This document shows, one piece after another, positions 6,358 to 60,036 of a stretch of 64,000 nt of DNA; within the stretch, counting starts at the first letter, position 1, and the number at the start of each line of letters is the position of its first letter. This DNA is from Halichondria panicea (lineage: Eukaryota; Porifera; Demospongiae; Suberitida; Halichondriidae), in NCBI RefSeq assembly GCF_963675165.1, contig NC_087377.1, positions 7,271,122-7,335,121 on the forward strand, in the 5' to 3' direction. Under the pieces are notes generated by a model. It did not search any database. It was not told the origin of the DNA and saw nothing but the letters and a program-made list of their open reading frames with translations. The translations under genes were made by a program, and so were the position numbers.

Positions 6358-6645
6358 TCAGTTTGACATGACAGAATACGACCTTTGTGAGAGGTCACCC
6401 CTTTTAGGGACTCTGTCTGCGCGCTCATAGGCAATGTTCCTCTTGAGTACTGAAGCATAAGCTTCGTTGGGCTGCTCAATTCCTGCAAATGTTGATGACC
6501 AATCCACTCTTCCATCTGACTCTGGAACCTCAACTGCATGTCAATTGTTCAAGATAAGTTAAATGATTTAGGTACCTTTATTTTGTCTCCGTTTCCTTAA
6601 AATCACAACGACAATTCCAACAGCGGCGACCTCCTCTGACCTCAC
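6358..6645 (-). CDS. Single-pass membrane protein, last two exons
   Basis: Minus-strand exon about 6645-6576 encodes a hydrophobic stretch AAVGIVVVILRKRRQNK, the end of a membrane helix followed by a basic stop-transfer cluster. Its donor (AAAG/GTACC) joins in phase to the acceptor at 6533 (CATGCAG/TTGAG). The second exon (6533-6358) encodes a 58-residue cytoplasmic tail from VEVPESDGRVDW to the stop TGA at 6360-6358, with tyrosines in NEAYASV and RSYSVM. Upstream exons are not seen; a MITE lies immediately upstream at 6659-6798, so the gene may be cut off. The protein is not identified; the arrangement resembles the tail of the receptor at 26-35 kb. Confidence 0.45.
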
Positions 6646-7469: not shown

Positions 7470-7627
7470 TGTTGCAGAGTAATAAGCTTAATCAACTTGG
7501 TAAGTTTGAGATTTCACAAAACACGTGTAAGAGTAAAACTAGAAATTACACTTAAATAGAACATAACATAATCTAGAACATTCCATACAAGTGTCCATAC
7601 AACTATAAGTGTCCATGTATTCTAACA
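7470..7627 (-). repeat. Copia 3' LTR
   Basis: It runs TGTTAGAATACATGG...CTCTGCAACA on the minus strand (158 bp, TG...CA). The adjacent inner sequence GCGAGAAGGAG is the polypurine tract. The pol stop codon TAG lies inside the first bases of the LTR, so coding and LTR overlap by a few bases. Confidence 0.9.
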
Positions 7628-8110
7628 CTCCTTCTCGCTTGCGTTGGGATGTTCAATTATTAGTGCCACTCCGGCCATGAGTCTCAATTTCTCAAACTGT
7701 TCATCATTCAGTCCTTTGGTCATACAATCAGCGTTCGTTCGACAATATTCAAGTTCCACCTTTCCATTTCCAACTTGTTCTCGGATATAATGGTATTTGA
7801 TTCCAATATGTTTAGATCGACCATGGAACTGAGGATTTCTTGCTATACTTATAGCAGACTGGTTGTCTTCGAAGATGACCATTTTCTTCGGTGGTTCTTT
7901 CTTTATATCGGCAAGTAATTGCTGCAACCAGACAGATTCTTGAGCAGTACTGGCAAGGGCAATGTACTCAGCTTCTGCGGTTGAGAGTGCCACGCAAGCT
8001 TGTTTCTTACTTCTCCAACTTATGGCTGTTCCACCAATTTGGAACACATACCCAGAGGTAGACTTGCGATCATCCAGGTCACCACCCCAGTCAGCGTCAG
8101 AGAAACCCAC
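7622..8110 (-). pseudogene. Copia pol: RNase H segment
   Basis: The segment encodes the Copia-type RNase H with the hallmarks KSTSGYVFQIGGTAISWRSK, LSTAEAEYIAL and FEDNQSAI. It degrades the RNA strand of the RNA/DNA hybrid during reverse transcription. It is separated from the RT segment by a frameshift near 8190 (AVKRIFRYLKGT is readable just upstream in another frame). The C-terminus ends KEC-stop at the LTR. Confidence 0.9.
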
Positions 8111-8194
8111 ACAATCCTTATCGGTGCTTGTCTTGAAGAGGAGACCATACTTCTGAGTCCCTTTCAGATACCGAAAGATTCGCTTTACAGCAAT

Positions 8195-9136
8195 TCAATG
8201 TTGCTTTGTTGGCTTTGCACAAAACTTAGCCACATTACCGACAGCATAGGTAATATCAGGCCTTGTGGCAGCGGACAGGTATAGGAGACTTCCCACAGCT
8301 GACTGATACTGTGCTTGATCTACAAAAGTGTCCTCATCTTTTGCTTTCACCAACTTTGTACTTGTGTCCACAGGAGTTCGAATCGTCTTGCAATCTTGCA
8401 TACCGTATCGCTTCAAAATGTTCTCAGTGTACGACTGTTGGCCCATCCAAACATATCCTGTAGTCTGGTCTTGGATGAATTTTACACCTAGGAAGTAATG
8501 CAAAGCTCCCATGTCTTTCACTTCAAACTGGCGTGACAGAGCTTGCTTGACTTCAGTCATTCGCTTTTGGGTCTTTCCAGCTAGAAGAATATCATCCACA
8601 TATACGGCAATCAGGAACATCTCTCCTTCTGTAGCCATATAGATACAGGGGTCTCCAGTGGCTTGTACGAATCCCATGTTCTTCAGGTGAGAATTTAAGG
8701 CAGAATTCCAGCATCTTGGACTTTGTTTTAAACCATAGAGGCTTTTCTTCAATCTGCACACCAAATCCGTCTTGCCTTTGACTGCATACCCCTCTGGCTG
8801 AGCCATGTACACTTCCTCTTGCAGTTCTCCATTTAAGAAGGCAGTAGTGACATCCATTTGATGCAACTTCAAACCATGCTGTACTGCAAGTGCTACAACA
8901 GTTCTCTGAGATTCAAATCGGACTACCGGCGAAAATGTTTTATCGTAATCTTGACCGTATCGTTGTGAGTATCCTTGTGCTACTAAACGAGCCTTGTGTC
9001 TTTCGATTGTTCCATTAGCACCTTTCTTGGTTTTAAATACCCACTTAGAACCAGCAGTTTTTCTGTCTTTGGGTAGATCCCACACCTCGTTCGTATATGT
9101 AGGGATTCCATCTCCTTCTCCATTGCATTCACCCAT
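8195..9136 (-). pseudogene. Copia pol: reverse transcriptase segment
   Basis: The segment contains the canonical Copia RT blocks: WVFKTKKGANGTIERHKARL, QMDVTTAFLNGEL, LKKSLYGLKQSPRCWN and the catalytic YVDDILLAG, so the polymerase residues are present. It copies element RNA to cDNA using the tRNA primer bound at the PBS. The frame breaks at both ends (near 9136 and 8195), so no full-length polyprotein is made from this copy. Confidence 0.92.
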
Positions 9137-9261
9137 TTAGTCTTGTCTGATCGAGTCATTGCTTCCTCTAGGGTGGTAGGATCTTCAGAGATTCCTGCAA
9201 TTATTGCTCAACCATAGTAATCAGGCTCTCTTCTTTGTCTTGACGATCGTCTAACTTGTTC

Positions 9262-10190
9262 TTAAGGTTCGTCGTCTTCGCTTAGACATTCAGTGTGATC
9301 AACTTCATGGGAACTATCATCCCCTTCACTTGAGCAATCGAGTTCAACAGTCCGTGTTTCTTGCTCGTTCTGAGTTGTTATCACATCACGACTGAAAATT
9401 ATTTTCTCTCGTTCTATGTCATAGAGACGGTAGGCTTTGGTTTCAGTACCGTATCCTAACATGAGACATTTCCTTGCCTTGGCGTCAAGCTTTTGTCGCT
9501 CATCACTAAGAATATGTGCATAGCACACACAACCAAAAGTCTTGAGATGGCTAACGTTTGGCTTTTCTTCAGTCCAGGCCTCAAAAGGTGTCTTTCCTTC
9601 AACAGCTGTTGTTGGACTACGATTTCGAAGATACGCGGCTGTTAAGAGTGCTTCAGCCCAGAAATTCTTCTGCAATTTAGAGTCAGATAGCATTGAGCGT
9701 ACCATTTCCATCAGTGTTCTATTCATACGTTCTGCCACCCCGTTCTGTTGGGGAGTCTTTGGCACTGTGAACTGATGACGTACTCCTTCTTTCTTCTCTA
9801 GAGGTGTACTCTCCTCCATTATCTGTTCGTAGAGTCTTCAGTTTTCGTCCACTCGAGTTTTCCACTAGGGCCTTCCACTCCATGAACTTCTGAAACACTT
9901 GATCCTTGCTCTTAAGCACATATACCCACACGTATCGAGTGGCATCGTCAATAAATGTGACGAAATAGAGACCTCCACCCTTTGATGGTGTAGAGATTTT
10001 GCCACAGACATCACTATGTACAAGTCCTAGGGGTACCTTGGCTCTCTTTCCTCCAGTCTTTGGAAAATGGCTCTTGTGATGTTTTCCATCAACGCATGCT
10101 TGGCAGAAGCTGATCTCTTTTGACGAGTCATAGTCAAAACCAGTTACAAGTTCCTCTCTGGCTAGCTTCTGTAAGTTTCTTACACTAATG
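9262..10190 (-). pseudogene. Copia pol: integrase segment
   Basis: Reading in shifting frames, the N-terminal zinc-binding part (GHISVRNLQKLAREELV, then C-x2-C as FCQACVDGKHH) is followed by HSDVCGKISTPS, FIDDATRYVWVYVLK, TDNGGEYTS and PQQNGVAERMNRTLMEM. These give the D-D-E triad in TDNGGE and GVAERMN positions expected for Copia integrase. Further on, PFEAWTEEKPNVSHLKTFGC is the usual C-terminal landmark. Frameshifts lie near 9820 and 9930. Confidence 0.9.
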
Positions 10191-11404
10191 TGTCCATACT
10201 TTCGATGCCAGTTGTCGACTCTTCGACCTTAGTCTCTTCGACCTTTGTCTCGGCTGCGTGTGTGTACACGCTATTCGAAAAACAGTTCAAATAGTACAGT
10301 TCTCCTGCTTTGGTTGCAACAGCTACAAGCCTTTTGTTGAATAAAATCTGACAGTTGGCTTTCCCGAATCTCACAGTTTTTCCATTTTCTGTAGCCACTG
10401 AGACACTGAGCAGATTATATGACAATCTTGGGACATTTTGCAACTTGCAGGTCTGGCTTCTGCCACTGGGTAATTTGCTGTTTAGCACCACGACTCCGCG
10501 TCCAACAGCATCAACTTCATACCCATCACCCAGTTTGACTTTCAATGGTGCCTCAAGATTCTTGTACTCGACAAATACACTACGATCGTTGCACATGTGG
10601 CTGGTAGCACCCGAGTCCACTATCCAAGCAGCCTTAATTGGATCTCCCGTCATCGCATGCTGTGCACATAGTATCACATCCTCGTCCACTTGAGCTGCAT
10701 TAGCCTTGGGTGGGATTCTACAGTTTTTCTTGATGTGACCGAGTTTTCCACAATTGTAACACTTTGGGCCTTTCTTCTTGAATTTATGACTGGCAGCCAT
10801 GGCTCTGTCATTTCCAGCACTAGATTCTTCTTTACCCTTCAGCTTGCGCTCCTCATGTAGTAACCTCTCAGTAACAAGTTCCATCTTGGGTACTTTAGCG
10901 TTTGCTTCGAGAGCTGTGACAAGCATGCTATACGACTCCGGTAGGCTAGCAAGTAGATGAACAACTCGATCTTCTTCCGAGACAGGATCGTCTATCACTG
11001 ACAGAGCGTCAAATACTTCTGTCATAGCCTTCACATGAACATGTACGGAATCACCGTCTTTCAGTCTAAGGGCATACAGTTTGGGCATACAGTTTACGTC
11101 GCAGTTCTGACTTATTCGCCCAGGTTTTCTTCTGAAATTGGTTTCTCCAGACTTCCACAGGATCCTCAGGAGTTCCAAGTAGGTACAGCAGCGATGGTTG
11201 AGCACAATAATTGCTAGTGCACGATCCTTCCTAGCCAAAAAACTTAGCTAGCCTGTCTGCATCACCTTCTCCAGGAGCGAGTTCAGAGCCATTCACGATT
11301 CCCCACAATCCATCATTCATCAATGCCATTTGACATTGGATTTTCCATGTAGGGAAGTTTGACCCGTTCAAGGGTTGAACAGTCACCGACTTCGATTCAG
11401 CCAT
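10191..11404 (-). pseudogene. Copia gag and protease segment
   Basis: Gag starts at the ATG at 11404 (MAESKSVTVQPLNGSNFPTW) and shifts frame near 11235 and again near 11130. Later come LLASLPESYSMLVTAL, the zinc knuckle CYNCGKLGHIKKNC (CCHC) and the protease active site WIVDSGATSHM. Gag packages the RNA; the protease would cut the polyprotein. At least two frameshifts make this copy inactive. Confidence 0.9.
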
Positions 11405-14897: not shown

Positions 14898-16938
14898 GTA
14901 ACTAAGTCTTAGGTCACACTGTCCACATAAACATGACTTAGAACAAATATCACAGCACAAGCAATTGAAACCGAGATCAACATGTTTGTAATTGTCAATA
15001 TTTCGGAAAAGACCACCCCTTCTACAATCTGTAGTGTTGAAGTTTGAAGCATGTTCTTTAATCTCATTATCAACTTGATGGTAAATTCTTGCCTTCAAAA
15101 GGGTTACACGTGATGGTTTACCATCTCGACTAGCCTCGATTCCAGGCCGATTAAAATACGGCCTGGTACCTATTGCAGGGGTGATAGTGCGCATGCGTTA
15201 GTTTATTCTCCAGAATCTGGGGAATCCCCTTTTTCTTTCTCTCATCTATTTTCTATCTTTGTAAATCAGCTTAGCTGTCTATTGCGTTGTTCCAGAAGGC
15301 TTTCACACTAGTTTGAAGCCAGAAGAGGCTCTCATCTACCTCTATGACGGTTGTATGGTCAGGATGTCTTACCTTGGATCTGTACAGGCTATGGGAAGTG
15401 TATGGTGCCTCAAACTGCTACTTGCGAAGACAACCCGGCTATAGGACCATCCTAGACGTAGATGAGAGCCTCTTCTGTCTTAAAACTAGTGTTCAAGCCT
15501 TCTAGACCAACGCAATAGAAGGCATAAGCCACAGCTTTACAGAACTCAGTCATAGAGATAAAGTATTACGGAACATATTTTTAGTAAACGGACTAATTTC
15601 CTGTGTAATTTACTAAGGTTTTACGTTCGTAGTACGATTACCCATATTCTGGGTAATTTGAAGCGCATGCGCACTATCACCCCTGCAATAGGTACCAGGC
15701 CGTATTTTAATCGGCCTTGAATCGAGGCTACATCTCGACCTGCTCTACCGGTCTCTTGTACATAGCTACTGATATCGTCTGACAGGCCAACATGAATGAT
15801 TTACCGAATGTTGGGACAATCAACACCCATACCAAATGCCATAGTAGCTACAACAATGCGAAGATTGCCATCACCCTTAAATAAACGAATGATTTCAGAT
15901 TTATGGGCTGGATCAGTGACACTTGTAAACATGTCCACGAGGCGAAATTCAGAAAGATCAGGTGCATCATCAGGATTTGTGAATGCAGCTCCAAGGTAAT
16001 CCTTAAAGAAGAGGTACATGTCACCACACACTCCAAAAGAACGTCCATATATGATTGTTTTGGGAAACTTGTTTCTCTCGATTACCAATTTCTGGGCCAA
16101 GTTTTGGAATGTCTCTGGTATACTTTTAAATAATCCAACAGCATAAATCAAATTTGGGATTACTGGGACTCTCGTAATGACAAATGGGTTTCTTAGGCCA
16201 ACAATACAGGAAATTAATGAAATGTCACTTCGGGTAGCTGTTGCTGTTAGTGCCATCACATGAACTGATGTTGGAATGAGGCTGCGCACTTCTCTAATTC
16301 TCAACAGCATTTGCCTGAAAGTCTCACCCCTGCAATAATATTATTGGTACACATGTTAATAAAAAACGATGAGTCAAATACATACCATTTCTTCACACAA
16401 TGAGCTTCATCGATTATTAAAGCCTTGAGTCTATTAGCATACACATCTCCCCCCAGAAGTCTTCTCCAATGCTTTTTGCTGATGATCATTTCAGGTGTAA
16501 AGAATACTAGCTGATACTTTCCGTGGAAGATCGCATCCATTGTAGCTGCATCAGACATCTTGCCCGAGACATATGTGCTAGAGATGCCTTTAGAACAATA
16601 GATGGCTACCTATATATAGAATAAAAGCATCCAGCTTAGAATGATCTAGTTATGTGTAAACAGCTCATATGCACATGTACGTATAATTATATGTATGTTC
16701 TATCTAGCCTTACATACCTGATCATGAATGATGGCCAGCAGAGGAGTGACTACTACTACAAGAATGACCTTTCTCCTTCTCCAATATTTTGTCAAATGCT
16801 GCAGGCAAACAAGCATAGCAAAGGCTCTTTCCAAATCCAGTAGGCAATACAGCAAAGACATCTCTGCCTCTCAGAAAAGAAGTGACTACTTCCAAGCTCG
16901 TTAGCAGCTTCTGTGACAGCTTGTGTAACTTTCTCCAT
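14898..16938 (-). pseudogene. RecQ-like DNA helicase pseudogene
   Basis: Minus-strand exons at 16938-16718, 16609-16386 and 16329 to about 14898 encode a RecQ-type superfamily 2 helicase, which would unwind DNA 3'-5'. Motifs in order: FAVLPTGFGKS (Walker A, out of frame with the start), VVVVTPLLAIIHDQ (Ia), LVFFTPEMI, LIIDEAHCV (II, DEAH), MALTATATRSD (III), IVVATMAFGMGVDCPNIR (V), YVQETGRAGRDG (VI), then a RecQ zinc-binding tail with CRRGG and CCDIC. It is dead several ways: frameshifts around the first exon's Walker A and again before VILVVVV, a TAA (15803-15801) where the motif expects Gln (CAA), and a 600 bp element inserted inside the codon run for GRAGRDG. No RQC/HRDC domain is visible. 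Confidence 0.88.
15131..15730. mobile_element. MULE-like non-autonomous element, 600 bp, 9-bp TSD
   Basis: Ends TAGCCTCGATTCCAGGCC and its inverted copy, with terminal repeats continuing for about 70 bp to gtgcgcatgcg. The flanks are catctcgac at 15122-15130 and again at 15731-15739, a perfect 9-bp duplication. Removing the element and one copy of the duplication rejoins the RecQ reading frame exactly. The interior is itself inverted (agaggctctcatctac / gatgagagcctcttct). Nine-bp duplications and long terminal repeats fit Mutator-like elements; no transposase is encoded. Confidence 0.85.
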
Positions 16939-23045: not shown

Positions 23046-23722
23046 TGGAACAAATAGTAATGTCGCCGTTGTCATATAGCCGCGTTGGTTCTTGGGAACT
23101 GACTGGTGCATGGCAGGGCTGCCTCCATTCTGTCAGTATTAAACTTGGACAAAACGGAGAGCACAACAACGTGGACAAAAAGGAGAGCACAACAATGTGC
23201 CGTACAGAACACCATGAGTGTATTCATTTGGCAATGTTCTTAACAGAGCGTGACTAACATTGTTAGCCAATTTTGTCGTTAGTTCTGTACGTCGTCATAA
23301 GACGTAGTACGGTACATGTTAGGGAGTCCTACATACACTTCCTTGGGCTCAGTTAAATAAATAAACAATACTACTTCCTTGGAGGGGGCTCGCAGCTAAG
23401 CTTCTCACCTATTTATTCTCCCTCGCCCATGGATTAATGTTATTCATAGTCATAATTAGTCATTAAGGCATCTCCAACCGGGTGATAACCGCTAATGATA
23501 TTCATAGCTGCAGTCTTGGGCTTGGCTTGCGATAAACAGCTCAGCCCCTTCCTACGTCGCTCCACCCTACCAACTCCCCTGGCTAGGTAGTTGGGAATGG
23601 TGATATTAACAGGAAGGTTTCCATATGCTGATTCAGCAGTTTCGAATTATGAACGCCCTCCATATTTTTATTCATGTCCACATGGCCATGGTGTACTGTA
23701 TAAGCAAGTTTAGATCTGATTT

Positions 23723-25201
23723 ATGGCTGAGCTAGTGGCTCATAGTATGGCTTCATCGTTTGGAGGAGGCTTGCACAACATGGGCAATACATGCTTTGCA
23801 AACTCTGTACTTCAGGGTATGTTTTATACATCTCGTATACAGAAGGTATTGTGTGATGAACGAGTACCACATGGTAAGGAGAATATTAATAATGCACATT
23901 CAATTGTTCATGTAAAATTTGTAACAGAACATAGTCAGGGAAGTGAACAGTTATGCATGGTGTGCACACTTAAAAGCCTGTACGACGAATGTCAGACGAG
24001 ATCCCAAGTTCATCCCTCTGGCATATACTCTCAGCTGAAAAGTAAGGAAGGAAATAATGACATTGTACGTTAGTGCATACAAGCTGCTTACTTTTTATTG
24101 AATATACCGAAGGTTTGATGCATCACTGGCAGCCATGCAGGTAATCAAGAAGATGCTCACGAGTTCATGTTGGCAATTCTTGACAGAATAAACAGCCACC
24201 TAGTTGTAGACGAGAAGTAAGTGAAGTAAGTGTAGATATTAATTACACTCAGTCAGTATTGCAAACATCACATGCACAGCATGACTCAGTCAGCAATGGA
24301 TAAAGTAATGGCAACTCTCTTATCGACCACTGGTATGCTTTAAATATTGATAGTACGTGACTATACTTGTTCCTTCAGTTAAATGCAGTGAGTGTGAGCA
24401 AGTTTCCACTACATCTATGGTTTCTAGCCACATTCTAATTGTACGTAAGAATAATAATTATAGGGAATTATAATGATCACAGGGAGAAAGTATAGAGAAG
24501 TGCATTGAAGCTACTTTTAGCGAGGTGCACCTCAGTGGGTGTAATCATGTAACAGGTATAATTATTAGAAGATTATAAGAGACGTGTGAAAACACAAAAC
24601 ATTATAATTATAGGTGCAAATCTCCTTCAGAGTACAAAGGTACACAATGTAGGAAATGAGTGTATCTCACAAGGTGAGATGGTTGCCTATCATATAAAAA
24701 CTTTTATTTACATACTATATGTCATTAGAATTGATACTACTGTGCTGCAAGGATGTACCTACACTGCATAGGGTATGTAATGGTGGTAAGTACGTTCAAG
24801 AATCTGAGATAAAGGGTAACTTGCCTGATGAAGTGGTGGACGAAGATTTGATCAGTATCCAATCTTACTTCTCTAAGAAACTCCTGGATAAAAAAGGTAC
24901 AATAATGTATAATAATTTGGTATTGATTATTGCTCTTCTTAGTTCAAGCAAAGAGAACAGAATGGAAAGAGAACAGAATGGAAATGTGGAGCCATTACGT
25001 CAAAGTGGAACATGGTTATGTGTGATTCATGTTTTGTCTGGTATCATTGGTAAGTCCAAAGAATAAAAATTAATGTAGCTACTACATACATTTTTAATAA
25101 CTATCTCTTGTATAGGTCTTGCACTGACATTGAAGTAGAGAAGAATACTCCTTCAGAAGATACAGATTGGTACTGCAGGAACTGTGCAAAGAAAATCATT
25201 T
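23723..25201 (+). CDS. Ubiquitin-specific-protease-like gene running into a PHD finger
   Basis: Exon 1 (23723-24041) carries the USP catalytic box GLHNMGNTCFANSVLQ with its Cys. Exon 2 (24141-24216) has NQEDAHEFMLAIL, the QDAHEF box. Exons at 24280-24332, 24379-24440 (VKCSECEQVSTTS, zinc-binding) and 24483-24555 (GESIEKCIEATFSEVHLSG) continue in phase. The downstream USP part with the catalytic His is not found: an exon from 24614 and a segment with GNLPDEVVDEDLISIQSYF follow instead. Then exons 24943-25049 and 25116 onward join to give WNMVMCDSCFVWYHW and SCTDI ... DWYCRNC, a PHD finger (Cys4-His-Cys3), which usually binds histone tails. USPs remove ubiquitin from proteins; without the His box this one may be inactive, or two genes may be abutting. 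Confidence 0.6.
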
Positions 25202-26246: not shown

Positions 26247-29200
26247 ATGGAGTACCTACGAGTGTTGACTGTCGTTATCATTATGCTCACACATCTGATT
26301 GTTCCTGGAAAAGGTTTGCACATACACCATCACTTCCCGATTGTGGCATTATAAGTATTAATTGACACACCCTTAATTTTTTAATCAATGTGCTCTTTTG
26401 GTTACCAATTCCAATATTTATTGTCCCGCTCCATTTTGGTGAGGGTTGTGAATAATGAATACAAGGAATGTACCCTATAGCGGGTATATTTCGAGGGTAT
26501 ATTTCGAGGGTATAAATTTTCGCGGAAATGCCTTTAGAAAGTTTTCATGGATTTAATTTTCGTTGAATAGCAGCCTTTTTGCAGCATGCATGCATGCATG
26601 CGATATTAAATGTGTGGTTATAAATTAATAATAATTATAAATGTTCGCGGTAATGTATGACTTGTACTAGTAGTAATTTTAAACTTTCGAACACACGTAC
26701 TTCTAGCTCAGTGTTCTTGCTCTTATACAATGCTTCTTACCATTCTGGAGGGCGGTTCAAAGCGGTTTTTTCTTCCAAAAAACATCTCACCATAATTATG
26801 TAGACTAACATGGCAGTCAGAGCCACGAAAAACAGTACCTGTACGTAGCTTCACTATAAGCAGATATATTTTGAAAAAAGGCTACTGAAAGCTCATAAGA
26901 AAAACAGATTAATGGTGCTCTGACCTCCTCTGCTCATATAGATCATAATCCTGTTAGAGTATAAATACTAGTCTAGATCCATCGTAGAATCTTTTCAGCA
27001 GTGTAGGGAAGGTGAGAGGGCGGTGGGAATGCTCCTAGACCACTCTGGTTATTTGCAGTGTCTCTGTAAAGCCTACAAAACAGTGGAGCATCAAGGTACC
27101 TAATGGTGCCTAATCGATTAGATTCTTATGAGTGCACGTGATAAAACCTGACGGTGGATGGCGCGCGTCCAACCTCCTCTGATTCTAGCTAGCTGCTTAC
27201 GATCACTAGATCTAGCTCATGAATAATTAATGAGCAAATGGTTTATTGTAACATATTGGACTTCTTGTTGTGTGCAGTGATACGTACACCGGTCACTGCA
27301 TGTGTATACAGTACATAGCACTCCAATGATTAACTTTTTATGTGTTATTTCTCACAGCTCAGTTTACAGTACAGCCATTGTCAGTGGAGAGAGCTGAGGG
27401 ACTGGAGGCAGTGTTCAGGTGTCGGTATCAAGCGGAGGGATTCGATGTGTCGTATGATTGGTTTATAAACAATTCCTTTGTTGGAGCAGATTCAGACACT
27501 GTTAGAGTACGTCGACCTTCATCTCCTGGTGGACCAACTACACTGATAATATTGGCCACTCCACAGCACAACAACTCTATTGTGTATTGTGAGGCTATAA
27601 TCAGAAATGGTTCTGATCGTACGTTTGAGATTTCATCCACAGCATCTCTAGTTGTTCGTGGTGAGTCAGTAATTATATCTTGATTGTCTTGGCATAATTT
27701 GTCCTTCTTTTATTACATTAGAGACGGTCCTCACTCCCTTTATTGTTGCACCAAACACCATCACCGTGATATGGAATGCTCTACCTCTCACTGAGTACTG
27801 TGTGGACATCAACACGACAACTTTGGACTTCACTGAAACAGTGGCCCTTGATTCTCTGTGTGGATTCACTAATGAGTACATCTTCATGTACTCTGATAAC
27901 AGTGTGTGTGCCAGATTCACTGTGACTCCTACTGATGGAGAGATGAGGGGAACAACCAGTGAATTATGTACTGGGTTATTTACGAGAGTAGAAGGTGTGT
28001 TTATACCATAATAATAGTACGTATTACACTTCTATAATATTATGCAGGTAGTGGAGAACAACACCGTATTCTTGAAAATAAAAGGAATAAATTAGTCAAG
28101 TTTAGGGCAACTGTGAGTGATTCCATTTTAGGGTTAGTGTTAGGGTTAGGGTTAGCTGTTTGTTACGTTGGTAAGAATGCATTTTTAGTTTGTTGAGTTC
28201 TCTCTAACATTTTAGGTTCCAAGTTGTACAAAGTTCACTCGGTATCGTGTAGACTCTGACTTATTGACTCCCTCCATCAACCTTCCAATCACGGACCCTC
28301 TTCTGTTTGATGGCTCACTCAGTTTCTCCCTCCCCACTGACAAGATGACAGAATACAGTGTCACACTGACTGATGAGAATGGAATAGACCTCGTGTTTGA
28401 GAACATTCCAATCAGTGAGTCTATCACGTTTATTTTGAGCTGATAAAAATATATAATTATTTGTGTGATAATTATCTCTATCAGGTACATTTGACATTCA
28501 AAACCTGCTAGTGTCTGAATGTGCTGGTGGTGGTGGTATTTGTGTGAGCATTGAGTATGTTGAAGGTACTGTCTCTCCCGGAGCTCTCGTCTGTGTGATA
28601 CTTGTCGTTAATGAAGTGCTTGACTTTGCTAACATGAAACTGGTTACCATCCCTCGGAATTCTATTGAGAATTTCACCATTCCTGTTTCTAGTGGAGAAT
28701 ACCGAGTGATTGCTTTTGATCTGGAGAGCAACCATTTACCAAACATGCCCATGTCTATGGTAGCACTCAGTCAAGACATTATGACAGTGAACTCTGATGG
28801 TGAAGGTACGTGCTCTGTGTGTTATTGTTGTGCTATAATTATAGTCATTTACCGTAGACATTACCAGTCCACCACCAAGAGAGGGCATCAGTGCAACCAA
28901 TTTAACAAATGGAGAGGTTGAAGTGACTTGCTGTGACCGGGATTGTCTAGTCTTGTTCCAATCCACCACCATCTTGGACCGAGTACCTGTTGGTTTCATC
29001 AACGCATCTGAAGTATCAAATTCAATTTCTGTGAATGATTCAACTGTCCTCTCTTTAAATGACACTTTTGTGGTGGCGTACTCTTGGAATAGTTTGGAGA
29101 CCATCTTTGATGGGGAGGTATCGCTCATTAGACGACTTGACCAACTCAATAGTACCTGTAAGTGCCTATGTAGATTATCACAACTGGATAATCAATTATT

Positions 29201-32200
29201 CCGCCTCCTCCTCATTCATATTGCAGCTGCTCCCACTTGTCCAACAGCTGCTCCCACTATACCTACAACGTCTGATCCACAAACAGACCCACCTCCTCCT
29301 CGTATGGAGTCTCTGCCAATATTACAAAATGTAGTTATCCCTGGTGAGTTAAAAAACGTGTGTGCTAATATCATTACTTTAAGTAGCATGTGAGCTAGAT
29401 ACACTATTACGACCATTAATTAAGGCTTAATTTAGCTCGTAACATCTCTCTCTCCCTGTTCAGTTATTATTGTTGCGATGGTTATTATCATCACTTCGAT
29501 ACTCATCGTTCTTGTTGTTTTGTGTCTGGTGAAGAAATATAAACGAAGTGGCAAGGTGTTTTATTCCAGGTACAATCATTATCAATTTGAATGGTACTCG
29601 TAGCAGTACGTAAGAATGTGGTTGTCATGTGCTACATCATCTAATTTAAAGTACATTTGCCAGCATTCATGCTAATTATGATCTACAAGCAATCCAATTA
29701 GGCCGTAAACATACGTACATGTACAATTGTTACGCGGGTGCATATAGTATGATTGAAATAGGGATGTTTCACAACAATATTCGTTTAGTAAGAATCTTAT
29801 GTTTACATTTCTTAATGTTAAAATAATAATTCTCTTAATTCACAGTAACTCTGAAGGCGGCAGTGTGGTGAGTATTACATTTATGTTGCAATGATAAACT
29901 CTCTTGCGTTGTGTATTTGTGCTGATATTGCGCTGACAATGTATTTTTATAGCCCCCACACGTAAGAATACTTTCCCAGTTCATAATTATGTTTGTACAA
30001 GTACTACATGTAGCTTCCTTGTTCACCTAAACTAGGAAGCATGTTTGTATTCACTCATGAGCTGATGCTATGGTTTCGTATTAGCAACGTCCTGTGTTCA
30101 TGTTTCAATATCCCCCTCAGTGACAACTATAATTGCTGACATGTAGATACTGATTTGTATTAGTCATTTGAAGGTACATTTAGGTACTGCTACATGTACA
30201 TGCAAAGAGTATCTACTCTTGATACAATGTATTGTTATGATGTGTTTTCACAGGTTGTTATTTCCACTATCAGATCCCTGGGGGCCTTGTTTCTATGGGA
30301 GAGACTGATCTGTATGCGTGTTGCTTGAATGAGTAAATAATAATGTTTAATGTGTATTGTCTACAGGATGTGGGTGCCTCAATAACATCGCAAGTAGCAT
30401 TTTACAATGTCGCCCGCCCTGAGAACATGTCTCTGGAACGCAACACGGCTGACACTGACGATACACCTCCACCAGGTTATGATGTCGTGCATAAAGAGAA
30501 CTTGCCAGGTCCTGAATATGAAACTGTACCATCAGCTAAGGCAGGCAAACCTACACCCACCACCAGTGAGAACCCTCCACCCCTTCCCCCTTCCATGATA
30601 CGAGGAGACAGTGATGCACCTGATCTACCACCCCCCTACAATCCTGCCGTGGATAACGAGAGTGTTGTTGTTATGTCAGTGGAGAGCTCTATCAGCCAGG
30701 GTGTGGAGAATCAGTCAGTAGATGAGGAAGTTATTAATGAGTCATTGAAGACAGATCTATCGGTCAGCGACACAGAACATGATGGTACTACAGAAGAGGC
30801 CATTAGTAGCTCTGAAGCTCAACCAGATATCAACCATGTAGACACAGTACAAGGTGCAGAGAGTGGAGCTGGTATCAATGACCATGGTGGACAAGAGGCA
30901 ATGATCGCTGTGCAGGTGAGTGCTTTATAGTACAAGTAAAGGTTTTCTGTGACGCTTTCTCCTTTGTCTCTTTTACATGATTGTGGTTTTGTGTGGCGCG
31001 TTTGTATACGTGTAAATGCACACTACAATAATTCAGTAAAATCAGTATTTCATGCAAACATTTGCTAAATGCAACTGTGCATGACAATATGTACATGCAT
31101 GGTTACAGCCCATTGAGCAGGATACAGCTGCATGTAGTATAATACCCGTGTTGGTCATGTATGTTTATGTGTGTTGTGTGTCAACACGCAGTACCTGGTG
31201 ATCCTTAAGTGTGTAAGGAAAAGCACCTGCGGTACATTATTTAAGTGTGTCCAAATAAGCTCAAATGGACACAAAGCGCTCATTGTTACTTAATGTAGTT
31301 CTGTCCCGGCCTACCGTACACTGTAGCTCCGTTGCTTCATGCACATACAATGCTACTTTTTTTACCATTACCATCAATACCATTTTTCTATCTACACTGT
31401 ATATGGTTGTTGGGGGTCAATAAAGATGTTACTATACTGTGTATTGTCTACAGGACGTGGGTGCCTCAATAATATCTCCAGTAGCACTCTACGATATCGC
31501 CTGCCCTGAGCACATGTCTCTGGACTGCAACACGGACGATACACCTCCACCAGGTTATGACGTCATATGTAAGGAAAACATGCAAAGTCCTGAATACGAA
31601 ACTATACCATTAGCTAAGGCAGGCGAACCTACATTCACCACTAGTGAGAACCTTCCCCCTCCCATGATACAAGGTTTGGACAACGATGTGGTGCTTATAG
31701 AGGAGACCACTAGCACTTCACAAGCAAAGAACGAGCGTACAGAGGATGGAGGTGATGATGGACTTGAGGCAATGATTACTGCACAAGTGAGAGCTATATG
31801 TATATACCTGTAGTGTGTAGACCGCTGTCTGTGATGTGGTACGTATTATACCCTAAATTTAACAGCTGCTTTTGTAGTCTCTCTTTGTCCCTTTTTGTGG
31901 GTACTTTATGTCTTTAATATACATGTATGTGGACGTCAGAGATTGTACAGCTGTGTGTGATTAATGTGTATGCAAGTGTCTGGCAGTTGTACAGTGATTC
32001 CAGGGAATGAAGCTCTACATGTCGGAAGCCTCCGTGCTTGAATACAATGACATCTTTTATAGTAATAGTAATAATATCAGTGGGGAAAGTACATATTACT
32101 AGTCTCAGTCTGTGTCACAATGTCCTATCAGGACTGAATTCATGTACGTACATTACAGGCGTTGTGAGTAATTACAGTAGACAGGAAGTATTGTTTATTA

Positions 32201-35200
32201 ATTACACTGGCCATTATAATAATATTTTTGGCAAATTGACTTTACAGTAATTATTAGCACCCCACCCACTCCCACGCAGCACCAGTACACGCTGGTGGTT
32301 CCCAAGCCAGCCAGCAGTGATGCCAAGGTGAAGGACTCATCCAAAGTCATCTACTCTGAGGTGGACAAGGACAAACTCAAACCAGTCGTCCCAACACCAG
32401 GTACTTGTTCAGTATACAGTGGAGCCCCTGAATGATAACCTTTTATAACCTGTTCAATTAATATTGTTTCAGGCAGACATTATTTTTGGCAAAAGTATCA
32501 ATAAGTAGTATACATGTTTACTGTAGATACTCACTATAATTATGTGGGAGAATAAATTTTGGGGATAGTGCTTACTAGTACATGACATCGCGTGTCAGCT
32601 AATTCCCTAAGTGGAGACGGTTGACAGTTTCATGTGTGTACATGTAGTGTAACTCCAAAACTTTGTGCTGGTAGTTTTCGAAACTAGTTGGACTGCTTTC
32701 ATCATGAGAGGCCAGATATCTCAATAACTTGCACATGTGTTATGCCCTGTCCTGTAGTTGCCAAAGCACAAGGGCAGTATATTCCGGTAGAGACCAAGCC
32801 AGCCAGCAGTGATACCAAGGTGATAGACTCGACCAAGGTCGTCTATGTCGTGGTAGACAAGGACAAACTGAAACCAGTCGATCTGAACGACCCACCAGGT
32901 AGGTCACTCTTATCCACTCTGAATATACCCTCTGACCTAGTTCCTACCTACCTACTTATTCTTTGGAAGTGTTTGTTGTTTTTAGAGCGTCTTTATCATT
33001 CCCTGAATCCCACCTGCTGACTAAACGGAAAATGAATCTCAAAAGCCAGTCAATTATTGCCGCTCATGCAACAGAAATTGTTGTTTTGGGTGTTTATAAT
33101 GTTATTATATCAATATTCCCTACCGCATTCAAGTGCTATCCTTTCAGGGGTGAGAATTTGCCTCCACATACATAATTATACATTTAGGTTTCCTATGCAA
33201 TATTAGAGGAAATATTTCTCTTATTCGGTACGTGATTGGATGTTTACTGTTATAATTGTATTCTTATGTTTTCTTAGAGGACATTTTTCCCTTATTTGGT
33301 GCTTTTTAGATTCACTGTTCAGTTGTAGTATGACCAGTAACAGTAGTCCCATGAAACAACTTTCATTATCTCCCTCTCCAGCTATTCCACCACGACGCCC
33401 TGTCACCAACACTGAGGAGCTGCACACAGAGAAGACACTAGGTGTGTGGTTAGTATACTTATACGCAATAGTTTTAAGAGTAGACATCCCATAAATTATT
33501 GTCTTGTTTTCTAATACATGTACATGTATATACCGTATACCAGGTAATTTTCGAGGGTCAAAACAAAATATTCGTGGTTCAGCAATATTTAGCCATTCGT
33601 GGTTTTTATTTTCGTGGTTGCTGCTTGCACTGCAGGTAAAGGTAGGTAAGGTCTCTTCATTCGTGGGTAAAACATTCGTGGTGGTCCAGTGTTAAACCAC
33701 GAAAACCATGAATATTTTGCCACGAAAATTACCCGCTGTACGGTAGTGTAGTTATGTACAAACATTTGTAAACTGTGGGAAAGTAACTGTGGGAAGGTAA
33801 ACGTTGTTCGTCATATCAGTTAATACAATGCTGTGATGGTTCCACATTACACTAATTCCTCAAGAGTTCATGAATAGAGCAGGTGTGTCATTTATGATTG
33901 TGTGTACAAGTGTAATATTGAATGTGTGACTCTAATAAATTACGAGCCGCAAAACACATACAGATTGCAGATTTCTCAATAACTGGATAATTATTATTAT
34001 AATTATGCGCACTCCTGATATGAGTAATAAATATTTTTTGTGTGGTTGCCAAAATACATGGGCTCATTTCCTAATCAAATTCCATCAATGTGCCAATAAT
34101 TATGTCCATTGGAATTCAATCTCAACCAATCTCTCCCTCCAGCTCTTCCACCACGACAACGGCCCCCACCACCACCGCCCACCCACGAAACGCTCATGGA
34201 TCTGCTACACAATGTTGACAATAAGTGGGAGGATATCGCCAAGGCACTGAAAATTGACGAGGACAGAGTTGACAAAATCTTCACAAACAATGAAAATGAT
34301 TATCTGCGACTACACGAACTGTTGGAGTATTACTTCATGAACGTCCATTTCAGTCACTCTTGGGAGGAGATGGTGCGAGTGCTGACGGAGATAGGGGAGC
34401 ATGATGGTTTGGCTGGGAGAATAAAAGCTGAGAAAATACAAGGTGTGTTTGGTACTCGTTAGAAAGAGTGGCATTTTGCAGTCTTGTCAATTATCGCTCA
34501 TAACTTGCCCCATTTACACCTACATGTAGCACCAATGTATTTAAGGGGTGAATCCCTTCAACCTTCGGTGTAAATTCTCCCCAAGTGGTACGAATTGTAG
34601 CTTTCGTGCAGTTGTAAGAGTTCTGTTTTCGTTGTGTGGGAAACACCTGTCTATACTACCACAATGCAAGCATTCCAGTGTTTACACAAGAACAACATGC
34701 AGCTAATATAATAAACAAGCATTGATATACATAGCCTGAGAACGAGTGTTGTATGAAGTATACATGCAGGCACAGACCCCGAGGGCAAGCTGCCTGTATC
34801 AATAACACAAGGATTCTCATGCTATACATGTATGCAATAGCATGTGTTTTATATCACCCCTTATGCCTCGACTACGTAACTGTGAAGTAAAAAAATAGCA
34901 CGGGAGGGACTGTATGACTTTTATTACATGCTCATTATAATTATTATGATGATACGCGATGCACTGCAAGTATCATTGGATGGGGTCTCGTGTAATAATT
35001 TTTGGTGATGTAATGTCCGAGGGCTAATTATTGTATCCCTGCCAATAACTAATACTAGCAGTAGGAGGTCAAGAAGAGCTCCACCATTGAATTGAGCCGT
35101 TGCATGTATAAACGCTCGTTTAGTAAGTATGTTTATGGGATTCTGTACTCTAATACTGTACTTGTACTCCGTATTCTACCTATAATTATGGTGCGAAATT

Positions 35201-35505
35201 TCAAGGCACTTAACTTTCATGGAATTACTTACAAAACATAAATTTCGCTCTATACGTACATTATGTCAATGCACGTTGCGTCCGCTGTTAGCAATGTTTG
35301 TGGAGGACCCTTGAAAACATTACGGTATACGTGTATAAATTACTACTTGAAGTCAATTAGTACTGTGTCTCTATACTATATACAACATGTGTGCTAAATT
35401 TGCCATTGCGTGACTGTATGGAGTGTACAGAATTATAATACATTGTTTGCTGTATTCATGCATGCAGGTGGCGAGGTGCTCCATAAGTTGTCTTCAGTGG
35501 TATAA
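26247..35505 (+). CDS. Ig-domain / transmembrane / Death-domain receptor, 18 exons
   Basis: Exons: 26247-26313, 27358-27660, 27722-27994, 28048-28112, 28216-28414, 28485-28805, 28858-29157, 29227-29343, 29464-29569, 29846-29867, 29953-29961, 30367-30915, 31454-31786, 32280-32400, 32758-32898, 33382-33441, 34143-34442, 35468-35505. All junctions are GT-AG and phases agree throughout. Exon 1 is a signal peptide (MEYLRVLTVVIIMLTHLIVP). Exon 2 is an Ig domain (FRCRY, YDWFINN, SIVYCEA). Exons 3-7 are a cysteine-bearing ectodomain with many N-x-S/T sites, and exon 8 a Pro/Thr stalk. Exon 9 holds the membrane helix (VIIVAMVIIITSILIVLVVL) and KKYKR. The tail has PPGYDV, PPPYNP (PPxY), YETV, VIYSEV and proline runs. 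Exon 17 is a Death domain (KWEDIAKALKIDEDRVDKI, SWEEMVRVLTEIGEHDGLA). It probably senses an outside ligand and signals through death-fold adaptors and SH2/WW proteins (inference). No known orthologue is recognised. Confidence 0.85.
28128..28157 (+). repeat. Interstitial TTAGGG tract in receptor intron
   Basis: Four TTAGGG-type units (ttagggttagtgttagggttagggtta, written here only as a type) lie in the intron between exons 4 and 5. They match the animal telomere repeat, though the tract is short. Confidence 0.7.
30367..31786 (+). repeat. Tandemly duplicated cytoplasmic exon (receptor exons 12 and 13)
   Basis: Exon 12 (549 bp) and exon 13 (333 bp) both follow tattgtctacag and open DVGASI-x-S-x-V-A, then PE-x-MSL, DDTPPPGYDV, PEYET and EAMI-x-Q. 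Both are phase 0 at each end, so either or both could be spliced in. Exon 12 alone carries PPPYNP and a longer acidic region. Confidence 0.85.
32280..32898 (+). repeat. Second duplicated exon pair (receptor exons 14 and 15)
   Basis: Both encode KPASSD-x-KV-x-DS-x-KV, then IYSEVDKDKLKPV in exon 14 and VYVVVDKDKLKPV in exon 15. Each has a V/I-x-Y-x-x-V core fitting an ITIM-like phosphotyrosine motif. The duplication therefore doubles a possible SH2 docking site. Confidence 0.8.
33532..33744. mobile_element. Tc1/mariner-type MITE, copy 3 (in receptor intron)
   Basis: Between TA dinucleotides: ccgtataccaggtaattttc and cgaaaattacccgctgtacgg. Same interior as the other copies. It lies in the intron between exons 16 and 17, leaving splice sites intact. 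Confidence 0.85.
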
Positions 35506-56494: not shown

Positions 56495-59400
56495 CAGGGT
56501 GTCATACAGGATTTTGAAATAGGGGGGGGAAATCTGCGTGGCGGCGCTCGAGTACGGCACGCAGGGGGGTCCGGGGGCATGCTCCCCTAGAAATTGTTTG
56601 TGCTCTTGAGGTGAATTCTGGTGGGATTTTGGGGGTTTTAAATGGGTGTCAAAATGTGGTTTGTGGGTTTGTATTTTTCTATGTGCATAAGTCAACAAAA
56701 CATGCCATGTGCTCTTAAAAGCATACTCTTAAAGCTTAGACTTTGACTAAGACATGGATATTAGGAACTATTTATCTAATTCTCGTAAGAGATCACATAA
56801 AGAAGTTGCAAGTGACAGTGACAGTGACAGTACTAGTGATAATGAAAGTGTAATGCCTGATCCCCGGTGTACCCAGCCTGCTCAGCTAGTACAATCGAAA
56901 TTAGCCTCGATCCCAGGCCGAGTTTTCGCTTTTATAACGGTTAGGCGAACAACTGGGCCTGGTACTAGTTGTCTGCGCATGCGTCAATCGTTCGTCAGAT
57001 TCTGACGAATGGATATTCTCGTTCACTTTCGTGACATTTATATTCGTGTACTATCGTGTACTAGAAGTCAGTTCCCGTTTTATCATTATTGGAATCGATT
57101 GGAATGGCTGTTAGCTGAAGCTTCTCTCTTCTCTGAAGCTTATTCTGAAGACTGAACAACAAGGGAAGAGGTATAAAGCTTTGTCAAGCTTGTTAAGGTC
57201 AGATATTTTTGTGTGGGCCCTATGGCCGGCTATGCTATCAAGTCTTGTTCATGTTTGGCAAGAATGTAGGTAGACTATAGTTTCATCATTAATATGGTGG
57301 ATCAAGTGAAGAGTGTGAGCTAGAGAACTTGGTGCTGCCATCATCAGCTCGTCGACAATGACACTATAACCGAGAAATTTAATATGTATAGATCTACACG
57401 TATTTAAAATGTCTACTTCTCTGTACAGGAGCAATGGCTAATATCCAGCTATCCCAACAGTGCTCCTCTTGGCTATACTAACGGACGAGACTGGACAGTT
57501 TGAGGTAAGGGTTTAACCGTCTTTGGTTTCTTTTAATATTGTCCTATACTCACAGACACAGGACTGGAGTATGACCTGCTCATTCGAGCGTTGCTGGGTA
57601 GCTCAGAGACATCAAGAGAATCTACGTTTTCTCAAGCAATGAGTTACGAGTTGGGGCCTAGAATCAGAGAAGTCCAGCAGCCTGCTAAATCTTTTTGAAA
57701 CGTAATTTGAAGGCATTCAATCATCCTGAAGTTGCCCTGGGTCACTGTAATTGTGCTGCAGCACAACTGGCAACTCCCCAGGCCTTTGTGAAGCAGCTCC
57801 CTATGTGCATCTTTTGTGTACTCACTCTGTGCATTTTCTGTGTACAAATTTCTATTATTGATTTATTAAATATTTTTGCCGACCACAAATATACAATGAA
57901 AATTTGACGCATGCGCAGACAACTAGTACCAGGCCCAGTTGTTCGCCTAACCGTTATAAAAGCGAAAACTCGGCCTGGGATCGAGGCTAAATCGAAATCT
58001 GATAAGAAAAAGGCCTATAAGTCTAAGTTAACATACCGGCAACAATGGAAACTAAAATATTCCTGGATAGACTGCGCTAATGCAGAAATGGGTATGTTCT
58101 GTGTTATTTGTAAAAAGTATGGCAAACCACCTGGTAATGCCCGTGGAGCATGGACAACACGAGGAATTACAGATTGGAACCATGCGACTGAAATGCTTAA
58201 GCTGCACAATGATTCCAAATGGCACAAAGATGCAGCCATAACAGCCCAGATGGCACAACAGTCAGATCTAAGTGTATTAGAGCTCCAAAATGCTGCGAGT
58301 GCCAGAGACACAAAGGAAAGATGCAAATGGTGATGAACAACTAGCACATCACCTTGAACAATCCCCTGGAAATGCAATGTATACATCTAAGTTTTCGCTG
58401 ACATCGCTTATAGAGGCCATTGCTACGTGGTTACGCTGAAAACTGTTGAAAAGTTTAAGAGAGAGCCCTTTTTTCTCTATTTTAGCAGATGAATGTGAAG
58501 ACATCAGCACTCAAGAAGAGCTTTCGATTTGCTGCCGATGGATTGTAGACGGTCAAGCAGAGGAGCACTTCATATCAGTCTTGCACGTTCTTGCTTGTGA
58601 CGCTGAAACCATCACTGAGGCAATCGAGTCTTTCATTGCTTCAAGTAATCTTCAGTACCGAAAATTGGTTGGACAGGGTTATGATGGAGCTGCTGTATTT
58701 TCAGGATGCAGAAGTGGAGTACAAGTAAGAATGCGCACTCATGCTGCTCATGCTGTGCACGTTCACTGTGCATGCCATAGGCTACAGCTTGCAAGCTTAC
58801 AAGCAGCTAAGACTGTTCCAGAAATACAAAAAGTCTTTGGCATGATGGGTAACATATGGAAGTTGTTCTATTATTCCCCAAAGAAAATGCAAGCACTGAA
58901 AGAAGTACAAGCTGTTCTTGGATTGCCGGAATTGAAGGTGGTGAAACCAAGTGATACCCGTTGGCTTTCACACGAGCGATGTATGCGAGCAATTCGCAAA
59001 GAGCTGCCTGCTCTTATAACTACACTGCAACAGCTGTATGAGACAACAGGTGATGCGGAAGCTTTTGGCTTAAGTACACTTCTCTCTTGTTTTACTGGAG
59101 TAGCCAGTATCTGCTTTCTTTCCTACGTCCTTGACACTCTGGCAAAAATGAATGTTGCCATGCAAAGGAAGGTGACTGACTTTAGCAAGTTAAAAATCAT
59201 GTTGCAATTCACACGTGACGAGCTAAAGTCATTGAAGAGTGACACAGCTGATTGGTGTTGCATAACTACATCCATGTTAGCTTCGCTGGAGACAGAGTAT
59301 GGAATCGACATTGGAAGACACAGAGCTGCATCTCCTCGATCAAAATTTGCAAAGATTAGCAGCATTGAAGAATACCTGTCACTCATTGGAATTCCTTACA

Positions 59401-59755
59401 TTGACACTCTGCTAGGAAATATTGAGAGTCGGTTCTCAGATAGTGTGGTTAAATTGCTGGTTGCTACATCTATTTTCAATCCTTCTCAACTACCAGCAGA
59501 AGGATTTTTATCTTCCTATGGTCTGCAAGAAATTAAGGAACTAGCTGACTTCTATGGCAATGCCGCTTCTGTAGAACATTGTGGTGAAACATATACATCA
59601 CCACCCCTACTCGATGGAGAAGAACTGGTTTCTGAATGGAAATTTTTTAGGCGAGCTCTATGCAAAGAGAAAGAACTATTTGTACGTACTAATCAGACAA
59701 CTCCTAGTATACAAGAGTTGTTGACATCAATGCAAGCATGTGACGCATACAAGGG
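56495..59755 (+). pseudogene. hAT-like transposon (ZMYM-type), interrupted and truncated
   Basis: A hAT-type terminus is likely at 56495 (cagggtgtcatacaggattt), followed by the GC-rich ccgggggcatgctccccta often seen at this end. The ORF starts MDIRNYLSNSRKRSHKEVAS at 56754, is broken at 56901 by an inserted element and resumes at 57999 (DKKKAYKSKLTYRQQWKLKY). A TTF-type zinc finger follows (MGMFCVICKKYGKPPG, WNHATEMLKLHNDSKWH). After a frame shift near 58320, a 437-codon stretch from 58446 carries FFSILADECEDISTQEELSI, GQGYDGAAVFSGCRSG, VHCACHRLQLAS and SDTRWLSHERC, the hAT catalytic core. The C-terminal dimerisation region is missing because the Gypsy LTR begins at 59756. Confidence 0.8.
56902..57989. 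mobile_element. MULE-like non-autonomous element, 1,088 bp, 9-bp TSD
   Basis: Ends TAGCCTCGATCCCAGGCCG and its inverse. The terminal repeats extend beyond 90 bp, through ttttataacggttaggcgaa to gcgcatgcgtc. The duplication aatcgaaat is perfect at 56893-56901 and 57990-57998. Taking out the element plus one copy of it restores the hAT frame (LVQSKSDKKK). The interior has an open frame at 57695-57907 with FNHPEVALGHCNCAAAQLAT, unrecognised, and no transposase. Confidence 0.88.
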
Positions 59756-59999
59756 TGTGGTATCCTTACGACATGGAACTAACATTAAGATAAAGACTTG
59801 TGATTCCGTAAATACTGTACTGTAAACCTGTGATTCCGTAAATACTGTGTTGTGTTAGTTCTAGTGGTTTCATGTTCTTATTTAGTCATTTCTGTACTAT
59901 TGTTCTAGAAGGTTCTTTCTAGTATTGTTTTTGTATAAATAGCCTGTGTATTTTGTATGTATCAGAGTTCTGATTTAATGAATTATTGAAGTTATCTCA
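59756..59999 (+). repeat. Gypsy 5' LTR (244 bp)
   Basis: It begins TGTGGTATCC and ends ...GTTATCTCA just before the primer-binding site TGGCGACGAGGAT. The same TGTGGTA follows the polypurine tract at the window's right edge, which fixes the LTR start. A 20-bp phrase (tgtgattccgtaaatactgt) is repeated within it. The last 23 residues of the upstream hAT frame are encoded by this LTR. Confidence 0.85.
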
Positions 60000-60013: not shown

Positions 60014-60036
60014 TGTGGATCAAGTAGCCTACAGCA

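Follow-up and report, generated by a model that had tools for sequence, protein, structure and literature searches.

In Hydractinia the Alr receptors are clustered single-pass proteins of the immunoglobulin superfamily (IgSF), present as tens of loci with pseudogenes and carrying tyrosine motifs in their tails, as described in the available parts of two articles (PMC11067881, PMC12065747). In Botryllus the FcoR proteins are type I IgSF receptors encoded at 53 loci, with tails that contain an ITIM, a hemITAM or a core tyrosine motif, and, according to the accessible sections of the same source, sponges, cnidarians and ascidians do not share conserved allorecognition proteins (PMC12065747). For sponges, IgTIR receptors and a Dysidea avara gene combining Ig with CARD have been reported (PMC6208332, available sections).

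The window analysed here is the whole stretch of 64,000 nucleotides at C1:7271122-7335121 of a 131.5-Mb sponge genome in 39 contigs (positions without a contig name are those of the window). In sponges, allorecognition has been ascribed to aggregation factors that are secreted and of which Calx-beta domains are the hallmark, and to our knowledge no sponge membrane receptor deciding between fusion and rejection has been identified. The assignment of the DNA to an early animal, made from the sequence alone in an earlier note, is supported in part: a degenerate DNA pattern of what we take to be the silicatein active-site signature, presumably pointing to a siliceous demosponge, has two genome matches, each of which falls within a Peptidase_C1 match on C2, and the reversed-control pattern has none in the genome.

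The receptor gene is real in the form of one predicted spliced open frame (26247-35505, forward strand, as are all its exons). Seventeen firm exons with AG/GT junctions and consistent phase lead in a single frame from the ATG at 26247 to the TAA ending at 35505, and a 9-nt microexon completes the eighteen phase-consistent exons claimed in the earlier note. The predicted product including the microexon is a type I receptor of 1107 aa, comprising in order a signal peptide, an Ig domain, FN3-like sandwiches, a stalk, a membrane helix, a tail with tyrosine, PPxY and proline-rich elements and a C-terminal Death domain. The single membrane helix is located at about aa 549-571, with ten N-x-S/T sequons on its outer side and a predicted cytoplasmic tail of about 535 residues. 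Splice sites of the same phase were found exactly at the projected position for 13 of 18 exons in each of the paralogues H and D and for 12 of 18 in paralogue G. Since the exon order also recurs across paralogues, including one on another contig (27-52% identity), the gene structure goes beyond what would be expected by chance.

The start codon and predicted signal peptide lie in exon 1 (26247-26313), which has counterparts at the projected position in H, D and G with 54-68% identity. Exon 2 (27358-27660) encodes the Ig domain, recognized by its C44/W57/C100 pattern, by Pfam, by alignment and by a family profile. Its Ig_3 match (20.9 bits, E 5e-4) is below the Pfam cut-off of 30 and the assignment therefore rests on the family, of which eight of ten members match Ig_3 (best E 7.4e-6) and all ten aligned members retain C21, W34 and C77 of the exon. 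The family profile matched 132 PDB sequences at E<=1 (best E 0.0012), and the best 60 of these 132 are Ig-superfamily chains by name. Exon 2 thus belongs, as judged from family-level matches, to the Ig superfamily.

The remaining ectodomain is encoded by six exons. Exon 3 (27722-27994) may encode an FN3-type domain; it gave no Pfam match of its own, the resemblance being weak and to FN3-like segments of L032 (a relative at C1:3.58 Mb). These segments themselves match fn3 below the cut-off. The short exon 4 (28048-28112) and exon 7 (28858-29157) were placed by splicing and paralogues, and exon 5 (28216-28414) is the best-conserved ectodomain exon in the comparison of close copies. For exon 6 (28485-28805) a single-sequence model (pLDDT 66.8) predicts a seven-stranded FN3-like sandwich; the structures most similar to this model were FN3 domains, with glycoside-hydrolase sandwiches ranking equally. 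Neither exon 3 nor exon 6 gave a convincing match in profile searches of the PDB. Exon 8 (29227-29343), identified by splicing and sequence, encodes a Pro/Thr-rich stalk, and exon 9 (29464-29569) the predicted membrane helix with a basic stop-transfer segment, as seen in the sequence and in paralogues.

Downstream of the membrane helix, exon 10 (29846-29867; NSEGGSV) is identical in H, D and G. Exon 11 (29953-29961) is the microexon, which encodes PPH; its form AG-9 nt-GTAAG is kept in H and D, and since it measures 11 nt in G we consider it optional. By sequence or paralogue comparison and motif scans, exon 12 (30367-30915) carries the motifs YNVA, YDVV, YETV and PPPY, and exon 13 (31454-31786) is a second copy of this module with YDIA, YDVI and YETI. 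Exon 14 (32280-32400) contains VIYSEV and exon 15 (32758-32898), a second copy of the exon-14 module, VVYVVV. Both agree with the loose pattern [ILVS]xYxx[ILV], which we take to be the ITIM consensus, and are thus ITIM-type motifs by sequence with a predicted inhibitory role. In addition to these two motifs the long tail has further Yxx(V/I/A) sites and PPxY. Exon 16 (33382-33441), recognized by paralogue comparison, is proline-rich (PPRRP).

Exon 17 (34143-34442) encodes polyproline followed by the Death domain, as indicated by Pfam, the family, a structural model and Foldseek. The exon alone matched Death (PF00531) with 27.4 bits against a cut-off of 22.6 (E 3.7e-6); in the whole-protein scan the match was slightly below this cut-off (21.4 bits), and a Death match was obtained by Pfam in four of five family members. 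A low-confidence single-sequence model of the exon (pLDDT 57.3) shows six helices. The best 18 of its 32 Foldseek matches, and 21 of the 32 overall, are death domains by title (among them p84, ankyrins, FADD, DR3, RIPK1 and p75NTR), and none of the 32 reached E<=0.001. Searched against the PDB, the Death family profile ranked a designed knot and an HP0242 chimera highest (E 0.00029); RIPK1 scored E 0.54 and Ankyrin-2 E 0.63. Taken together, the profile match and the six-helix model place exon 17, at the level of prediction, in the Death domain superfamily. The final residues (...SSVV) and the stop are encoded by exon 18 (35468-35505), conserved in H (83%).

The open frame, the Pfam matches and the family matches hence agree with the earlier proposal that an Ig-type ectodomain and a cytoplasmic Death domain are joined in one predicted polypeptide. 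Of the two domains for which rejection by profile searches had been named as a refutation, Death was not rejected and Ig, below Pfam's own cut-off, was retained at the family level. A whole-protein Pfam scan at E<=10 found Death and Ig_3 alone. Among these matches there was no TNFR_c6, no ZU5 or TSP1 and no TIR, and membership of the TNF receptor superfamily, of UNC5 and of IL1R/IgTIR was rejected, as the earlier note had anticipated from the layout; Calx-beta was likewise absent and a sponge aggregation factor was rejected.

Several other features were observed in the window. A Ubiquitin carboxyl-terminal hydrolase match (UCH, E 9.8e-9; 23720-24073, forward strand) lies directly upstream of the receptor gene. 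On the reverse strand, frames at 7625-11247 resemble a Ty1/copia-type polyprotein by eye, and a Helicase_C match at 15804-16340, RecQ-like by eye, is slightly below the cut-off (20.9 versus 23.5 bits). On the forward strand, a DUF4371 match (58440-59822, E 2.6e-10) and a long frame that appears gag-pol-like by eye (60028-63978) were found. Rfam and tRNA scans of the 64-kb window gave no matches. Elsewhere in the genome, C12:1.04-2.08 Mb holds a dense array of Death matches with many near-equal scores, perhaps NLR-type genes.

The search for paralogues that the earlier note had suggested revealed a clustered family with two tail types. The whole protein retrieved at least 87 rows from the genome, all at C1 6.96-7.70 Mb (42 of 430 candidates scored). 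With exon 6 as query 62 rows were obtained (55 in the main cluster, one on C2 and six on C8), and with the short tail described below 76 rows (53 in the main cluster, 20 at C1 3.44-3.70 Mb, two on C2 and one at C1:8723919). After merging of rows less than 1200 bases apart, the 55 exon-6 rows correspond to at least 53 loci at C1 6.91-7.74 Mb, within about 0.84 Mb, and the 53 short-tail rows to about 48; about 12 main-cluster loci have the long tail with ITIM-like motifs. These numbers of loci are minimum values; some of the loci, in pairs that score identically, may be uncollapsed haplotypes. In the receptor family 29 stretches of C1 and C8 were read, in addition to the relative at C1:3.58 Mb. 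In the latter, Ig and FN3-like pieces occur in two copies and are followed by a membrane segment and a short tail. This relative lies within a second cluster of related short tails (C1:3.44-3.70 Mb, 19 loci). A small cluster at C8:4.48-4.53 Mb contains six exon-6 relatives, at least one of them with the full Ig-to-Death layout. In this C8 locus, which keeps the Ig-TM-ITIM-Death order, exons 2, 3, 5, 6, 7, 9, 12, 15 and 17 match at 27-52% and no convincing separate match was found for exons 1, 4, 8, 10, 13, 14, 16 and 18. Within the window, a partial short-tail piece (6397-6531, reverse strand; 44 of 86 residues, 82%) is a remnant adjoining a retroelement-like region.

Similar ectodomains in this family carry either the long ITIM-like tail or a short tyrosine tail. 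Copies without the long-tail exons could be taken for ectodomain-only genes, secreted or dead; this was rejected, as 12 of 13 such sites have a different hydrophobic membrane segment with short tails beyond it, the 13th stretch being 542 bases. The short tail, read by eye at three sites, contains YASV, YEQT, YESI, YEDV and YVNI. For the counts of motifs, the tree and the selection analysis, exon matches with at least 75% coverage and without a stop were used. The tree of 19 ectodomain rows has two fully supported subfamilies, each with long and short tails; its starred branches force at least three tail changes, and the AU test rejects a single clade for the six long-tail rows of the main cluster. 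The ITIM consensus was present in 19 of 19 exon-14/15-type places passing the filters, including C8, and PP[AP]Y in nine of ten exon-12 rows, the exception being C8. In this family one kind of ectodomain is combined with two tail types, as in vertebrate paired receptors.

Complete Death exons were located at C1:6966045, 7305263 (the gene in the window), 7612692 and 7702009, with a partial one at C1:7554705, and on C8 a complete one at 4536376 and a partial one at 4484239. In the main cluster four of about 12 long-tail loci thus have a Death exon. In one of them, copy J (7612692), exon 16 is interrupted by a stop and the Death domain is shortened; the 10 kb read contained no ectodomain, and this copy may be damaged. 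Copies D, E, F and G share the same end, ALAPRQRHPPPPPIHETSLITV, copy I has a 91% version of this end and copy B a degenerate one. Copy G had been classed beforehand as lacking Death, which its sequence confirmed. Because Death occurs on C8 and in both ectodomain subfamilies (the gene in the window and H in one, A in the other), the simpler reading is that the Death domain was ancestral and was lost in at least five copies sharing the short substitute end. The four Death exons among about 12 long-tail loci, with J defective, imply that Death signalling would be dispensable for many members.

Selection was compared among copies of at least 65% identity. Purifying selection acts on the Death exon (pN/pS 0.26, 0.15-0.42 by codon bootstrap, four copies, J included). 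The Ig exon is near neutral (pN/pS 0.87, 0.65-1.20, codon bootstrap, ten copies); its first strand is constrained (about 0.3), later windows are near 1 (0.8-1.25), and NG86 dN/dS exceeds 1 in 15 of 45 pairs. Significant positive selection on the Ig domain was rejected, as pN/pS is not significantly above 1, and since the interval includes 1, relaxed constraint fits as well as diversification. Values for other exons were 0.79 (exon 12), 0.49 (exon 14), 0.47 (exon 15) and 0.48 (exon 7), so that tail exon 12 is as loose as the Ig exon, and the differences between exons represent a contrast and not proven diversification.

We assign a probability of roughly 0.6 to the reading that the gene is functional and belongs to a clustered and diversifying family of Ig/FN3-type single-pass receptors in which one kind of ectodomain is combined with two tails. 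By analogy it would best be read as the arm that carries Death in a recognition system resembling paired receptors, the most likely setting being the recognition of microbes or of other cells, including self/non-self discrimination. The Ig/FN3 ectodomain would bind a surface or soluble ligand, phosphorylated tail tyrosines would recruit SH2 proteins that damp signalling, and clustering of Death domains could recruit a Death-domain adaptor with caspase or NF-kB output, while the short-tail relatives would set the opposite sign. At C7:1623085-1623814, matches to DED and to part of Death lie 0.45 kb from each other and, from their sequence, suggest a FADD-like adaptor.

Among the alternatives, a family for microbe sensing or general immunity, with an expansion like that of sponge NLRs or SRCRs and without a self/non-self role, in which Death leads to inflammation-like or death responses, has a substantial chance of being correct, though we would not bet on it. 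Pathogen receptors commonly form large clustered families, at least 148 Death matches are present in the genome, and the Ig+CARD gene of Dysidea avara is described, in the available text, as changing after microbial signals (PMC6208332); however, two tails on near-identical ectodomains fit a sign-balanced recognition of host ligands at least equally.

About 50 related receptors in one chromosome stretch make a good candidate for a self/non-self system, and the immune or allorecognition interest voiced in the earlier note is supported in part, by the clustered family and its two tail types; the cluster, the paired tails and the ITIM-like motifs go beyond that note. The stronger proposal that the cluster is a sponge histocompatibility complex, in which the variable Ig domain reads self/non-self, the tails balance activation and inhibition, and the Death members kill in rejection, is tentative and on balance doubtful. 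In sponge allograft studies a death-domain molecule, DD2, and apoptosis have reportedly been linked to rejection. The accessible parts of a report on a sponge graft experiment describe no significant enrichment of apoptosis (PMC5450542).

A receptor for cell adhesion or development that signals through Death without ligand and adheres with ligand would be consistent with the Ig and FN3-like ectodomain, the PPxY motif and the proline-rich tail, and UNC5 and DCC are said to act as such dependence receptors; we nevertheless judge it unlikely, given the absence of ZU5, TSP1 or any other UNC5 domain among the Pfam matches and the tens of clustered, fast-changing copies, which are unusual for a guidance receptor. 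That the gene is a decaying member of a recent array or a set of misjoined exons is very improbable: close copies also have well-conserved introns, so that likeness inside a subfamily partly reflects recency, and some other copies show stops or missing parts, but here each of the 17 firm exons has an open frame and splice sites, the Death exon has a pN/pS of 0.26 and the exon order is identical on C8 at 27-52% identity.

If the reading of a functional clustered family with two tails is true, a two-tail IgSF family in a sponge would move the paired-receptor design towards the animal root, and a tail holding both ITIM-like motifs and Death would unite inhibition and killing in one molecule. The locus is now defined for a direct comparison of polymorphism with graft outcome.

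Among known systems, UNC5 has an Ig ectodomain, one membrane helix and a C-terminal Death domain, as the sponge receptor is predicted to have; it differs in that the sponge receptor has no TSP1 or ZU5 match and has an ITIM-like and PPxY tail. The vertebrate KIR, LILR, Siglec and CEACAM receptors are clustered and combine related ectodomains with tails of opposite sign; in contrast, the sponge short tails are not canonical ITAMs (spacing YESI-x5-YEDV), and we know of no vertebrate paired receptor with a Death domain. The sponge IgTIR and Ig+CARD genes likewise join Ig to an innate-immunity signalling or death-fold domain in one gene, with TIR or CARD in place of Death, and the available text describes neither a cluster nor an ITIM-like tail for them (PMC6208332). 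A description of a clustered Ig-ITIM-Death receptor of sponges was not found in the open-licence literature, which was the scope of the search (subscription papers and preprints lay outside it).

By sequence, the family is a clustered single-pass IgSF family of the Alr/FcoR kind, and by layout Hydractinia Alr and Botryllus FcoR appear to be the closest designs. With Alr it shares clustered single-pass IgSF receptors and tyrosine motifs in the tail; polymorphism and genetic control are established for Alr, for which the available parts of the sources describe no Death domain (PMC11067881, PMC12065747). With FcoR it shares the type I IgSF receptors, the many loci and the ITIM-type tails; FcoR differs in having variable Ig, sushi and C2 Ig domains where the sponge receptor has Ig and FN3-like domains, and, as far as the accessible sections describe, the Death domain occurs in the sponge receptor only (PMC12065747). 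The sponge receptor, which combines an Ig/FN3-like ectodomain, an ITIM-like tail and a C-terminal Death domain and belongs to a paired cluster, is best described as an unusual variant of the clustered paired-receptor kind.
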